Below, one piece after another: positions 27,084 through 57,937 of a stretch of 64,000 bases of DNA. The stretch lies in contig NC_016894.1 in assembly GCF_000247605.1 (NCBI RefSeq), positions 3,461,732 to 3,525,731 of the forward strand, given 5' to 3'. The first letter of the stretch is position 1; each line of letters starts with the position of its first letter. Under the pieces are notes generated by a model, which was given only the letters and a program-made list of their open reading frames with translations, was not told the DNA's origin and did no database searches. Both the position numbers and the translations under genes were made by a program. This DNA is from Acetobacterium woodii DSM 1030. Lineage in GTDB: Bacteria; Bacillota; Clostridia; Eubacteriales; Eubacteriaceae.

Positions 27084-27183
27084 GCACTATATGTATCCAA
27101 CAATTCTTACGATATCAACATGAGAATCAATTTTTTTATGTTACTAACTTCCCTTTTCCCTGGAAGGACATTTTAGCACATCA

Positions 27184-27338
27184 TTCTAGTAGGTTTCCTG
27201 ACTTATAGCTGATATTCTCCTAGCCTTCCCAAGCATAACACCCAGTGACATAATAAGGAGACTTAACTAATTACAGTGACCGGATCGTTCTGGATTCTAA
27301 CCAGATTCCCTCAATGAAATTATTCATCCTAAATGATT
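27184..27338 (-). promoter_or_regulatory. cobalamin riboswitch of the hem/cbi operon
   Basis: Read on the minus strand, the segment has the order of a cobalamin aptamer: GATCCGGTCACTGTAATT, then GTCACTGGGTG, then GGGAAGGCTAGGAG, and finally the B12 box AAGTCAGGAAACCTA (27189-27207). Ends TTAGG / CCTA pair as P1. A TATAAT-like -10 (27368-27373) lies just upstream, with no clear -35. It controls the operon beginning with the small ORF and hemA. The gap 27374-27662 shows no other gene. Confidence 0.92.
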
Positions 27339-27662
27339 TTTTACATTTCGTATTTAATTGTGTTTATATTATAACACTTATACGATAAAAGTACAGGTTT
27401 TTTTGAATGCTTTTAATGTTATTAATCTTCTTTTTCATTTTTGAATTTACCAATTTCGAAATCAAAACTTTCCGTCTGGACAACCACCTTTTTATTTTAT
27501 TAAACCGTTCAAACCGCAATCATTCTTTTTTTGGTCCGCTTATTTTTGATTTGTTTTACTAATTTATCTTGGTAACTATCGCAATCTTTTACATAAAATG
27601 CTACAATAAAGTAAGCTAATTTAATCGCGTAACCATTATGAATTGAAGAAGAGGTATCACTA

Positions 27663-39127: not shown

Positions 39128-39294
39128 TTGTCGATAACCGACCGTACCGATCAATTGTTAATCTGTTGTATGCACGCAATTCGTACAGTTGTAATCAAAG
39201 TTTTAGCTAAAGACAACCTTTTCGCTACAACTGTTCGCCTTGAGGCACACAACATGATCGAACAATTGTCGGTTCGACGTTATCTTTTTTGACA
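39128..39294. repeat. family A palindromic repeat, full-length copy A4
   Basis: A 167-bp element with ends TTGTCGATAACCGACC and GACGTTATCTTTTTTGACA, and inner arms GTACCGATCAATTGTTAATC (39144) and AACAATTGTCGGTTC (39275). It sits between two direct copies of a 23-bp terminator hairpin (39102-39124 and 39300-39322), between the convergent HD-GYP and MORN genes. Confidence 0.9.
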
Positions 39295-42329: not shown

Positions 42330-42380
42330 TTAGCACTAACAACCTGCTGCTATCTTTAACCCTTTTCCAACCAATTAAAA

Positions 42381-42408
42381 AAGCGTATCACCATCGATAC
42401 GCTTTTTT
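42381..42408. terminator. bidirectional terminator
   Basis: AAGCGTATC / GATACGCTT stem around a 6-base loop, with an A-run on the left and TTTT on the right. It serves the ADP-ribosylglycohydrolase gene on the plus strand and the orphan riboswitch transcript on the minus strand. Confidence 0.8.
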
Positions 42409-42411
42409 AAT

Positions 42412-42680
42412 GTTGCTTAAATTTTTGGCCAGAAAAATTTAAGCGAAGGAATAATGTTTGTCAAAAATGTAAATTAATGAAAGCAAGTAAATTTCGGGGA
42501 TGTCACACACCATCCCCGAGGAAGGGTATTAAATACTGACTTGGAGATGTCCTTGTATTCGAAGAGATTCTACTATTGGCTAGGAGAAAGTAACCAACCC
42601 CAAAAATCACACACTTTTCTTGGGTTCGCAAGCAGTTACCAATGACAAATTAACTTGTGATCGGATTATGCAATACGAAA
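42412..42680 (-). ncRNA. candidate structured RNA under a cobalamin riboswitch
   Basis: This minus-strand segment lies between the riboswitch terminator and the next terminator and contains no ORF with a credible ribosome binding site. It shows three hairpins. H1 (42590-42639) has an outer stem GTAAC/GTTAC and an inner AACCC/GGGTT stem. H2 (42495-42518) is a perfect 8-bp stem CGGGGATG/CATCCCCG. H3 (42415-42444) is a perfect 12-bp stem with a 6-base loop. H1 and H2 carry the identical 8-base loop GTGTGTGA on the minus strand. It may be a B12-regulated small RNA or antisense RNA. A decayed gene is the alternative. Confidence 0.4.
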
Positions 42681-42707
42681 AAAAATCCTTCTCCAACGGA
42701 GAAGGAT
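42678..42707 (-). terminator. expression-platform terminator of the orphan riboswitch
   Basis: On the minus strand, ATCCTTCTCC-GTT-GGAGAAGGAT is followed by a run of eight T, about 75 bases after the aptamer. Confidence 0.85.
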
Positions 42708-42779
42708 AAAAGAATCATACTTACAAACTTAAATATAATGCTCTTACAGTCCTCTAAATCGGAGGTTTGATAAGAAATC

Positions 42780-42935
42780 ACTACAAACAGGTCTTCTGGC
42801 TCTACAATCAACTTTCTATCTCCCTTCCCATTAAAACCTTAACAGTGGTTACGAGATAGTCATCATGTATTACAGCTGCGATTACAGCAAAGGATTTACA
42901 CCTTTTTCCCTTGAATATAGGACAAGTTCACTATT
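42780..42935 (-). promoter_or_regulatory. cobalamin riboswitch without a downstream protein gene
   Basis: On the minus strand the order is GGTGTAAATCCTTTGCTGTA, CGCAGCTGTAATACATG, GTAACCACTGTTAAGG, GGGAAGGGAGATAG and the B12 box GAGCCAGAAGACCTG. It has a consensus promoter just upstream and a terminator downstream. The only gene below it for over a kilobase is on the opposite strand. It is therefore intact but orphaned, apart from the RNA segment at 42412-42680. Confidence 0.9.
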
Positions 42936-42946
42936 TAATTGACTTT

Positions 42947-42975
42947 ATTTTACACTAATAATGGGCTTTTGTCAA
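42947..42975 (-). promoter_or_regulatory. consensus promoter of the orphan riboswitch
   Basis: On the minus strand, TTGACA (42975-42970), a 17-base spacer and TAAAAT (42952-42947). Transcription would start near 42940, right at the aptamer. Confidence 0.75.
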
Positions 42976-43064: not shown

Positions 43065-45041
43065 TCACATTGATCCTGTCGTCGCCATTGTTTCTGAAAT
43101 ACCCGTCTGTTTAATTTTTTTCAGTGGCCCAATCACTGATAAAGCTCCGGTCATGACACAAATAATTACTATTCCAACTATCTGGGATAGCGGAAACGAC
43201 CAATTTGCAGCAAGAAAATCAAGTAATTTCTTTTGTAACAGCAACCCGCCCATACAGCCCATGATACAACCAGTCAAACTATAGGTAATTGCCTGTGTCA
43301 AAACCATTTTATCAAGCTGTTTGTCTGACATCCCCACGGCTCGCAACAGCGCCAGATATTTAGCGCTGGAGACAACACTGGCATTCATCGTATTGATCAT
43401 GTTTAAAATACTAATCAAAGCAATAACTGCCACAAAGCCATAAATAAAAACAGCGACGGTCATAAAGGCATTTTGGGCTTCAGCGTTCATCTGGCGTTTA
43501 TCGTGTAGCGTGATGGTCTCATCAATCATGGTCTTAACCCTAGCGACGGTCTGCTCACCATTTTTGCCATTTAGTTGCAGATCAATCAAATGCTCAGTTG
43601 GCTGCCCCAGAATTTGGATATTTTCAATTTGAGCCAATTTTTGCAATAACTCGGGTGTCATGGGCTGATCAGATGTTAAGGTCAGATCCTCGGTATACGG
43701 TTTGTCTGTTTTCATCCCTAAAAAAATAGGATTAACCAAAACACTAAATCCTAAAAATAAAATAATGCTGATGGCAATCGAGCTAGTCATGAGAACCATC
43801 GTCCGCTTTTTGTTGACGGCGCTATTTATCCCCATCGCAATTTCAACCGGAAATAGCCGAGTCAGAAAACCCCGTTTGGGCTTGAGCGAAATTTTTACTT
43901 CTGTAATCGCATTAACCGCATGAACCGGTGATACCTTTGCGGCCTTGTTAGCTGGCAACATCGAAGCTATAAAAACCGTCATAAAACCAGTCAGTAAACC
44001 GGCACCAATACCAATTGCACTGAAATTTAGAATTGCAATGTCTCCAAAAAGCTGCGGGTTATAAATTTTTAATACCACCGAACAAACTAAGCTTATCAAA
44101 ATTCCCGCCAGTATTCCCAAGGGGATCGCTTTAAGTGAAATGATCAAACTTTCTCGTCTTACTATTCGCCGGATTTGTTTTTTCGAAGTACCAATACAAC
44201 GCAACATTCCAAATTGTCTAATCCGATCCATAACTGATATATTAAAAGTATTATAGATCATCACCACCCCAGTGACCAATACCAACGCAAAAAGCACGCT
44301 CCCGATAAGATAAAAGGTTAAGACACGATTATTTTTGGTTTGTAACATCAATGCCAAAAGTCCTTCATTGTAACCAATCCGATCTTCGGAAATATTTAAA
44401 ACGTTTGCTATCTCATTTTCTGCATTTTTAATATTTACACCCTTTTTAAATAATACAAAATATTGACTGGCAACTGTAGTCAATCTCTCAGACGTTTCCT
44501 TTGATACAAAAACAAAAGGAATCGCAGCCGCCTTAGTCGCCCCCCAATCGTTAATAACACCGCTAATCATATAATTTCCTGCGCTCCCATTTGATCGGAT
44601 GATATTGATTGTGTCTCCAATATTTAAGTCCTGCTGATCCAGATACCATTTTTCAAGAACGATTTCCTGATCATTCGTTGGTCTCTTCCCTTCAATAAGA
44701 ATGATATTTAAATTGTCGGCAAACCCTGCATCGATATATCCCAAGGCACATGTATCATCATTAATTTTACCCTCACCCAAGTCTTTCAACACTCCTGAGT
44801 TCGCCACGTCAATCCGGCTTATAACCGTGTCGATCTCATTTTGCGTAGGATTTCGAATCAGCAGATGATAATTTCCTTCACTCTTCAATACCTGATTTTT
44901 TTCAAATTTCACCAACGCATCCAACATCGAGAATATGCCAACCACCAGCGCCACCGCCATTACGACACTAAATATTGTCAATCTCGTTTTGTTTTTATGC
45001 CCAGACAAATATTTTGGTGCTAAATCGAGATAATTTTTCAT
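43065..45041 (-). CDS. FtsX-domain ABC transporter permease
   Basis: This 658-residue protein has an N-terminal helix (RLTIFSVVMAVALVVGIFS), an extracellular domain of about 200 residues, then two FtsX blocks (VMDRIRQFGMLRCIGTSKKQ near 275, and YLALLRAVGMSDKQLDKM near 575), each with three or four helices. This duplicated layout is typical of lipoprotein- or peptide-handling exporters in Firmicutes. The gene overlaps the ATPase stop by four bases and is controlled with a kinase-regulator pair directly upstream, which suggests defence against envelope-active compounds. The substrate is unknown. Confidence 0.88.
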   Translation of the reverse strand: MKNYLDLAPKYLSGHKNKTRLTIFSVVMAVALVVGIFSMLDALVKFEKNQVLKSEGNYHLLIRNPTQNEIDTVISRIDVANSGVLKDLGEGKINDDTCALGYIDAGFADNLNIILIEGKRPTNDQEIVLEKWYLDQQDLNIGDTINIIRSNGSAGNYMISGVINDWGATKAAAIPFVFVSKETSERLTTVASQYFVLFKKGVNIKNAENEIANVLNISEDRIGYNEGLLALMLQTKNNRVLTFYLIGSVLFALVLVTGVVMIYNTFNISVMDRIRQFGMLRCIGTSKKQIRRIVRRESLIISLKAIPLGILAGILISLVCSVVLKIYNPQLFGDIAILNFSAIGIGAGLLTGFMTVFIASMLPANKAAKVSPVHAVNAITEVKISLKPKRGFLTRLFPVEIAMGINSAVNKKRTMVLMTSSIAISIILFLGFSVLVNPIFLGMKTDKPYTEDLTLTSDQPMTPELLQKLAQIENIQILGQPTEHLIDLQLNGKNGEQTVARVKTMIDETITLHDKRQMNAEAQNAFMTVAVFIYGFVAVIALISILNMINTMNASVVSSAKYLALLRAVGMSDKQLDKMVLTQAITYSLTGCIMGCMGGLLLQKKLLDFLAANWSFPLSQIVGIVIICVMTGALSVIGPLKKIKQTGISETMATTGSM

Positions 45042-45721
45042 CTTTTGACATCTCCAATTTCGCTTACCATTCCATCATTTACCTGAAATACCCGGTCTGC
45101 CAACGATGCATAATGATGATTATGGGTAATCATCATTATCGTCTGGTGATATTGATCTACCGATAACTTAAGTAGCTTCATTACCTCCTGACTATTTTTG
45201 CTGTCAAGGTTACCGGTTGGTTCATCAGCAAGAATAATTGCGGGCTTGGTGGCCAATGCTCTGCCAATAGCCACGCGTTGTTGCTGCCCGCCTGATAATT
45301 GACCGGGGAGATGATTTTTCCGTTTTGTCAACCCCAGAATTTCCATCAAATCCCTGATATAATAATTGTCGGGTTTTTGATAATCCAATAATATCGGGAG
45401 GACAATATTTTCTTCAACATTTAATTCTGGAATCAGATTAAACCCCTGAAAAATAAAACCGATATTTCGACGCCGAAAAACAGACAGTTCCTCTTCTTTC
45501 ATTTTCTGGATTGCTCTGCCATCAATCATCACGGTCCCGGATGTTGCTTGATCCAGCGCTCCAACCATGTTAAGAAGGGTACTTTTACCTGAACCCGAAG
45601 GTCCAATGACCGATACGAATTCCCCTTTTGATACGGAAATAGACACATTATTTAATGCGACTACCTTTGCCTCGCCTTTACCATATGTTTTGCACAAATT
45701 ATGCGTTGACAAAATATTCAC
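45038..45721 (-). CDS. LolD/MacB-type ABC transporter ATP-binding protein
   Basis: This 227-residue protein starts with a GTG after GTGAGGTG. It has Walker [11 protein letters not shown]-loop [12 protein letters not shown], signature [14 protein letters not shown], Walker [12 protein letters not shown] and H-loop MITHN, all intact. It pairs with the permease downstream. The start is 65 bases from the kinase stop, with a BceR-type palindrome and a possible promoter in between, so the transporter can be induced separately from the kinase pair. Confidence 0.92.
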
Positions 45722-47732: not shown

Positions 47733-47876
47733 CACTTTTTCCTCCTCGCAATATTTTTTATCTCATGATCCTATTTTTAGCAAACGAATTTCTTCTCTTA
47801 AGTATATTTTGCCCTTGTTGTGGATGCAAGTTTTTCTTTCTGAATATGTTTTTCTCTGTAGGATCGACATTGCATA

Positions 47877-47901
47877 AAAAAAACACCTTCTTTCGAAGGT
47901 G
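47877..47901 (-). terminator. terminator of the second corrinoid operon, distal hairpin
   Basis: On the minus strand, CACCTTC-GAAA-GAAGGTG is followed by TTTTTTTT. A worn copy of the same hairpin stands at 48084-48102 on the other side of repeat A5, closer to cbiT. Confidence 0.8.
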
Positions 47902-47908
47902 ATCAAGG

Positions 47909-48075
47909 TTATCAATAAACGACCGTACCGACCAATTGTTAATCTGTTGCATGCACGCAATTCGGACAGTTGCAATCAAAGTCTTGGCTAAAAATAGCCT
48001 TTTGACTGCAACTGTTCGCCTTGAGGCACACAACATGATCTAACAATTGTCGGTACTACGTTATCTTTTTTAACA
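47909..48075. repeat. family A palindromic repeat, full-length copy A5
   Basis: A 167-bp element with ends TTATCAATAAACGACC and TACGTTATCTTTTTTAACA, and inner arms GTACCGACCAATTGTTAATC (47925) and AACAATTGTCGGTAC (48056). It has the same orientation as A4. It lies between two versions of the terminator hairpin downstream of cbiT (47884-47901 and 48084-48102). Confidence 0.9.
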
Positions 48076-57620: not shown

Positions 57621-57671
57621 ACTAAACAAAAGGTTTAATTCGCTTCTTCCCACCGAAGAATTTCTATGATT

Positions 57672-57800
57672 TATGAGTGTCCTGACTTTTACTTCATCCT
57701 TGGTTCTTCCTTCCCATCAGTTAGACAGTGGTTTAAGAACATTGTCAGTAATTACAGTAGCGGGGGCTGTAGGGGGCTTCCACCCCTTTCCTCATCACTT
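57672..57800 (-). promoter_or_regulatory. cobalamin riboswitch of the btu/cbi operon
   Basis: On the minus strand: GGTGGAAGCCCCCTACAGCC, CCCGCTACTGTAATTACTG, AACCACTGTC, GGGAAGGAAGAACC and the B12 box AAAGTCAGGACACTCA. A TATAAT -10 lies at 57805-57810. It controls btuF-C-D and cbiA through cbiT. The remaining gap to 57937 holds nothing recognisable. Confidence 0.92.
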
Positions 57801-57937
57801 TTCTATTATATTAGTGGAAGTGTATCATAGAACGCGAAATTTTTCAATTGATTATTTTATGAGTGGGATTGTAAAAATGACTAAACTTAAAAAAAGCCGA
57901 GACCTCACAACAAATTTCTCCACTGTTTTTTAGTTAT

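Follow-up and report, generated by a model that had tools for sequence, protein, structure and literature searches.

A conserved cobalamin riboswitch unit in Acetobacterium woodii that probably encodes a B12-gated antisense sRNA directed at the start of pduB

A cobalamin riboswitch unit on the minus strand of the Acetobacterium woodii DSM 1030 genome is probably the gene for a B12-gated, trans-acting antisense sRNA that pairs with the start of pduB and holds back the propanediol-utilisation (pdu) genes. In order, the unit comprises a promoter, a cobalamin aptamer, a first terminator, a stretch of about 300 nt in which no protein gene lies, and a second terminator (Table 1). The sequence itself shows what these parts are and that they are conserved, that no ORF is present, that a helix with pduB mRNA can form and where it falls, and that the operon concerned is pdu. 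The stretch analysed, referred to here as the window, is 64,000 nt long and corresponds to positions 3,461,732-3,525,731 of the genome (4.04 Mb, single contig); positions are given below in window coordinates. G000 denotes the A. woodii genome itself, and other genomes and loci are cited by handle (G###, L###).

Table 1. Features of the riboswitch unit in window coordinates.
Feature	Position	Strand	Basis or remark
Promoter TTGACA-17-TAAAAT	42947-42975	-	11/12 consensus matches
Cobalamin riboswitch aptamer, RF00174	42769-42953	-	77.5 bits, E 2e-17, model positions 1-189/189
B12 box GAGCCAGAAGACCTG	42788-42802	-	inside aptamer
P13 hairpin CCTC-CGATTTA-GAGG	42751-42765	-	core CCTCCGATTTAGAG invariant in 18/18 loci
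Terminator 1, riboswitch-controlled, stem and eight T	42678-42708	-	kept in 18/18 loci
sRNA body	42377-42677	-	fold, conserved core, no conserved ORF
Unpaired conserved motif CTTTCTCCTAGCCAAT (CUCCU, anti-Shine-Dalgarno-like)	42575-42590	-	CTCCT invariant, both genera
Unpaired conserved core GAATCTCTTCG...GACATCTCCAAGTCAGTATTTAAT	42528-42570	-	TCTCCAA and TATTT invariant, both genera
Motif ACATCTCCAA	42541-42550	-	its ACAUCUCC can pair with pduB Shine-Dalgarno GGAGGUGU
Covarying hairpin CGGGGATG-GTGTGTGA-CATCCCCG	42495-42518	-	both-sided changes in 3/8 pairs; 99% of cells paired
Antisense element CTTTCATTAATTTACATTTTTG	42462-42483	-	complementary to pduB mRNA -15..+7 (Shine-Dalgarno and start codon)
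A+T-rich hairpin, loop CTGGCC	42419-42440	-	fold and alignment
Terminator 2 (GCGTATC..GATACGC and T6), sRNA end	42377-42408	-	fold
pduB-pairing sequence in sRNA			CUUUCAUUAAUUUACA

The initial annotation had listed a promoter, a full aptamer with B12 box, an eight-U terminator and a second terminator, and every one of these parts was found on the minus strand. The aptamer scores well above the RF00174 gathering score (77.5 against 31.5 bits) and holds the B12 box, which places it among the cobalamin riboswitches; a low-threshold Rfam search of the unit returned, besides the aptamer, weak matches only, all below gathering score. Across 18 aligned loci from two genera the TTGACA element is identical and the aptamer sequence is very highly conserved. 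Read from the sequence, complementarity links the P13 loop to the aptamer's UAAUCG loop at 42884-42879, and this pairing of L5 (UAAUCG) with L13 (CGAUUUA) makes a kissing loop. The expression platform belongs to the common terminator type. Folding indicated an alternative to the P13 hairpin that competes with it: with the 3′ arm of terminator 1 absent, GAGGA from the 3′ side of P13 pairs with that terminator's 5′ arm, and GAGG of the same strand is the predicted antiterminator. As in known cobalamin riboswitches, B12 would be expected to favour termination at terminator 1.

The A. woodii genome contains 14 cobalamin riboswitches above the Rfam threshold, and the remaining ones are close to protein genes that in many cases serve B12 synthesis or transport. 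Two more lie within the window, at 27171-27347 (minus strand) and 57655-57840 (minus strand), where they precede a hemA-like gene and a gene for a lipoprotein resembling a transporter binding protein, respectively; both are apparently ordinary cis arrangements. Another, at G000:C1:512669-512850 (L068), precedes genes resembling the activase and the reductase of an anaerobic, B12-independent ribonucleotide reductase system and appears to be another B12-sparing switch.

The segment that follows terminator 1 folds 6 standard deviations better than its shuffled versions (z-score -6). Its conserved sequence is mostly unpaired and consists of CUCCU, ACAUCUCCAA and UCARUAUUURA, with CUUUCAUURAUUUA in addition in Acetobacterium. 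The hairpin with the UGUGUG loop is conserved with compensatory changes, and a counterpart of terminator 2 (hairpin and T run) is seen in relatives from both genera. Between the two terminators there is no ORF with a ribosome binding site conserved in relatives, in agreement with the original description of this segment as lacking a credible ORF, and the sRNA core is conserved in 22 genomes. With its own promoter and terminator and no conserved ORF, the unit has the make-up of a trans-encoded sRNA gene. That the segment is instead the remnant of a degraded gene, or a gene for a small peptide, behind the riboswitch is scarcely credible. Most Acetobacterium sequences do contain a short frame from the ATG of the hairpin (MVCDIP...), but this frame ranges from 8 to 52 aa, in several species stops interrupt it, and it lacks a Shine-Dalgarno sequence and starts within a stable stem. 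Conservation tracks RNA pairing rather than codons, and none of the relatives, which were checked for the intact gene that a degraded remnant would imply, has a gene in that place.

A covariance model built on the 121-nt sRNA core detected it in 22 of 40 family genomes, one copy in each, namely in 18 of the 19 genomes of the Acetobacterium genus and four of the five genomes of a second genus, which is probably the Eubacterium limosum group. This is the type of search that had been suggested for the downstream segment, and among the 67 genomes of the order the model found no core in any other genus. By blastn, the post-terminator segment had matches in 20 of the 61 genomes searched. Named carriers include Acetobacterium paludosum, A. 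tundrae, A. dehalogenans and A. wieringae, plus an A. woodii bin. The neighbours of the unit are wholly different in the second genus (a LysR-type regulator upstream and a convergent gene downstream), which indicates that the unit stands alone.

The earlier description of the nearest downstream gene as lying on the opposite strand applies to A. woodii and G015, the only genomes in which an ADP-ribosylglycohydrolase gene is interposed, and does not extend to most relatives, where a glutamine amidotransferase gene on the same strand comes next. Because the ADP-ribosylglycohydrolase gene occurs at these two loci only and terminator 2 precedes it, the proposed antisense read-through into its message finds no support. 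The amidotransferase gene, which in most Acetobacterium species begins shortly past terminator 2, would fit a cis-acting leader disrupted in A. woodii by an insertion, but we consider this very improbable: the RNA is closed by a terminator, the amidotransferase gene is preceded by a separate promoter-like sequence, and, apart from the opposite-strand gene of A. woodii and G015, other genes follow the unit in G009, G006 and the second genus.

Several features of individual loci were recorded. In several species the unit adjoins cobalamin synthesis or transport genes (L014, L016, L017 and L018): CbiE/CbiT-like genes stand upstream of it, and in G009 it is preceded by an ABC transporter and followed by a CbiJ-like gene that has a B12 box of its own. 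At L019 (G007:C203:532-638, minus strand) the promoter and the first aptamer nucleotides are fused to the sRNA core; in this genome (2.2 Mb, Acetobacterium genus) the aptamer and terminator 1 are gone and the antisense element is retained, and the locus may represent either a natural riboswitch-less version or a version in decay. Elsewhere in the window, near-identical hypothetical peptides (MLCASRRTV...) are encoded at 39128-39292 and 47758-48046, about 8.7 kb apart and on both strands, which points to a repeated DNA element.

Patterns and chosen stretches of DNA were used to search for targets of the sRNA. When the seed complement, TAAATYAATGAAAGC, was searched with one mismatch allowed in six genomes, it matched one orthologous place in all six, ACGGAGG[T/C]GTAAATTAATGAAAGATG, where the gene for a 261-aa protein has its ribosome binding site and start, and the same site is present in every other sRNA-bearing genome of the Acetobacterium genus. 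The protein has two BMC domains and is the product of the second gene of a pdu operon that encodes, in order, a histidine kinase, an AraC-type response regulator, pduA, pduB, the diol dehydratase large subunit (PF02286, E 2e-293), further subunits and, later, a cobalamin adenosyltransferase (PF01923), where pduB is the name suggested for the 261-aa protein by its position, BMC domains and similarity. As a shell gene, pduB immediately precedes the AdoCbl-dependent diol dehydratase. The published pdu cluster of A. woodii has the kinase, the regulator, pduA and pduB in the same order (PMC7593272). The pduB gene (G000:C1:3033555-3034337) lies about 470 kb from the sRNA core (3504199-3504319).

In A. 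woodii, CUUUCAUUAAUUUACAUUUUUG (42462-42483, minus strand) and CGGAGGUGUAAAUUAAUGAAAG (the pduB Shine-Dalgarno sequence and start codon) form 22 uninterrupted pairs, 18 of which are Watson-Crick, 16 of these in one run. This helix is the longest in 725 kb of A. woodii DNA on both strands, where, the opposite strand of the sRNA itself apart, no other exceeds 19, and the longest helix at 181 other gene starts is 15. The duplex energy of -24.3 kcal/mol compares with -10.5 +/- 2.4 kcal/mol for shuffled elements (0/400), a statistic uncorrected for the screen of segments and genes that came first, and none of the 181 other gene starts matched it. After opening costs, the net energy was about -10.5 to -15 kcal/mol in most species tested and was lower, and modest, in G014 (-3.3) and G006 (-5.5). 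The seed has an average unpaired probability of 0.53; it is a conserved seed of moderate accessibility that matches the translation start of its proposed target, with the pairing kept in evolution. In A. woodii the pdu operon has none of the genome's other cobalamin riboswitches, and its B12 input could therefore be the sRNA.

Two further candidate routes to a target were tried and rejected. A long complement of the central core TACTGACTTGGAGATGTCC (up to three mismatches) occurred at the sRNA locus itself only, and matches for TTGGAGATGT fell mostly within coding regions. Upstream of the unit, the ribosome binding site of an FtsX-type permease gene (45041-45057, minus strand) holds TTGGAGATGTC, an exact 11-nt complement to the sRNA motif GACATCTCCAA; since none of the hits in G011 and G014 corresponds to it, this match was taken as chance.

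The start region of pduB is near-invariant, also in genera that do not carry the sRNA, so conservation of the target is not in itself evidence and the informative changes lie in the sRNA. Among 18 Acetobacterium-genus sequences, the 16-nt seed has changed from C to T at position 15 and from A to G at positions 9 and 14, and each of these changes converts a Watson-Crick pair to G.U. Only two changes break a pair, A16T in G014 and A10C in G006, and G006 has gained two G-C pairs adjoining the seed; outside the seed the antisense element drifts. In the second genus pduB reads TGGAGGTGTAG and the Acetobacterium seed is absent; there, the other conserved motif, the one at 42541-42550 in A. woodii, reads CUACAUCUCCA and is an 11-bp complement to the same pduB site, a length often reached by chance, with a high energy rank (1 of 181 starts and 7 of 400 shuffles as good). 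All 22 sRNA-bearing genomes have pduB, and the sole member of the Acetobacterium genus without the sRNA (G004, 87% complete) is also without pduB. Seven family genera have pduB and no sRNA, so the sRNA is not required for pdu. The case for pduB as the target rests on a long helix at a precise position, found in every sRNA-bearing genome of the genus, and on the target's biology.

An alternative, which appears doubtful and is kept as a rival or secondary regulon, is that the B12-gated base-pairing sRNA has other targets or more of them: it would repress corrinoid proteins from methyltransferase (O-demethylase-type) systems, either together with pduB or in its place. A single-genome duplex ranking initially pointed to corrinoid proteins, before pduB was found, and in A. 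woodii the post-hairpin segment pairs with nine corrinoid-protein starts, the energies averaging -24.9 kcal/mol against -16.1 +/- 2.2 for shuffles (0/200). Similar pairing occurs in G011, G001 and G017, and the signal along the whole unit peaks at the post-hairpin segment. However, it is missing in G010, G005 and G014 and weak in G016 despite identical gene starts, it uses the less conserved half of the antisense element, and the hits are not independent because the genes are paralogues. In four of the nine genomes tested, the starts of MSKIEEVK-type corrinoid proteins (L137-L149) pair with 42443-42495 (minus strand) at energies between about -17 and -33 kcal/mol. Corrinoid proteins are possible further targets.

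It is improbable that the RNA works by binding a protein through the UGUGUG-loop hairpin, in the manner of EutX and Rli55 on EutV, with the pduB match secondary. In favour of this, one hairpin of the RNA is strongly conserved, its loop invariant and its stem covarying. A EutV-type ANTAR site, however, consists of two hairpins whose hexaloops have A1 and G4; such a pair is absent from the conserved RNA, and the loops UGUGUG and CUGGCC ruled out an ANTAR/EutV sponge under this rule. Protein binding would also leave the 22-bp antisense match unexplained.

An antisense sRNA acting on pduB, the reading preferred here, would operate as follows. With ample cobalamin the aptamer would stabilise P13, terminator 1 would form and only a leader of about 260 nt would be made. 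When cobalamin is scarce, the P13 3′ strand would serve as antiterminator and polymerase would reach terminator 2, yielding an RNA of about 560 nt. Its element at 42462-42483 would then pair with the Shine-Dalgarno sequence and start codon of pduB mRNA and block translation, and ACAUCUCC could pair with that Shine-Dalgarno sequence as well. The propanediol microcompartment, and probably also the B12-dependent diol dehydratase encoded just behind pduB, would be held back until the cofactor is available. From the sequence we infer that the unit is transcribed, that it responds to B12 in this direction and that the effect of the pairing on pduB is repression and not another effect. Seven cobalamin riboswitches of E. 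limosum have intergenic transcription start sites (PMC5651825), which is consistent with transcription and is no proof for the sRNA copy.

In Listeria monocytogenes, a B12 riboswitch with a terminator controls AspocR, a 1,400-nt cis-antisense RNA to pocR (PMC8079631). AspocR resembles the RNA described here as a riboswitch-governed noncoding RNA that lowers propanediol-utilisation genes without B12, an effect that is presumed in A. woodii. AspocR lies opposite pocR and hits the regulator, whereas the RNA of about 560 nt predicted here is encoded about 470 kb from its target, with no pdu genes beside the unit, and would cover the pduB ribosome binding site. EutX of Enterococcus faecalis and Rli55 of Listeria are noncoding RNAs controlled by B12 riboswitches that sequester EutV (PMC5821096). 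They share with the A. woodii unit a free-standing arrangement of promoter, cobalamin aptamer, B12-dependent terminator and noncoding tail, with no downstream gene, in which the tail acts, presumably so in A. woodii, against a B12-dependent microcompartment operon; their tail carries protein-binding ANTAR hairpins and their target is eut, whereas here the two-hairpin site is lacking, the tail holds an antisense element and the target would be pdu. These precedents, which the initial annotation had cited, hold for the general logic, but the mechanisms known from them (sequestering of EutV, cis-antisense to pocR) cannot simply be carried over. The terminated SAM riboswitches SreA and SreB of Listeria, mentioned in PMC8079631, reportedly act in trans on prfA (Loh, 2009). 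In that case as well the RNA comes from a riboswitch locus and base-pairs close to where translation of an mRNA encoded elsewhere begins; the acting form there is the short, ligand-terminated one, whereas here the element lies behind the terminator and would be made without the ligand. C/U-rich sRNAs of Gram-positive bacteria, such as LhrC in Listeria and RsaE in Staphylococcus, cover Shine-Dalgarno sequences. Unpaired CU-rich stretches able to cover ribosome binding sites are found here as well; those sRNAs differ in that their transcripts lack a ligand sensor and carry several short motifs instead of one long specific antisense element.

The initial suggestion of a B12-controlled regulatory RNA in an acetogen, independent of EutX/Rli55 and AspocR, is borne out by an RNA conserved in two genera, by its different neighbours in the second genus and by the specific antisense match to pduB, with transcription presumed. 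No paper describing this RNA was found in the literature searched, whose coverage left most subscription papers outside. It seems likely that a riboswitch-driven, trans-encoded sRNA silencing a distant B12-dependent microcompartment operon represents, after AspocR and EutX/Rli55, a third and independently evolved form of such gating, found in two acetogen genera and possibly extending to corrinoid methyltransferase proteins.

Riboswitches governing a regulatory RNA in place of a gene are known in few cases, mostly from Enterococcus and Listeria, and the present unit would add one that is conserved among free-living acetogens and whose named target can be tested directly. It suggests that B12 gating of microcompartments has evolved repeatedly through RNA, by different mechanisms. 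For the reading of genomes, a gene-less riboswitch can be an sRNA gene, and its target can be recovered through a comparative antisense search. The control of pdu described in Acetobacterium consists of the histidine kinase and response regulator only (PMC7593272). The sRNA may add a further layer to that control, one relevant to the use of diols and ethanol and to the engineering of acetogens.
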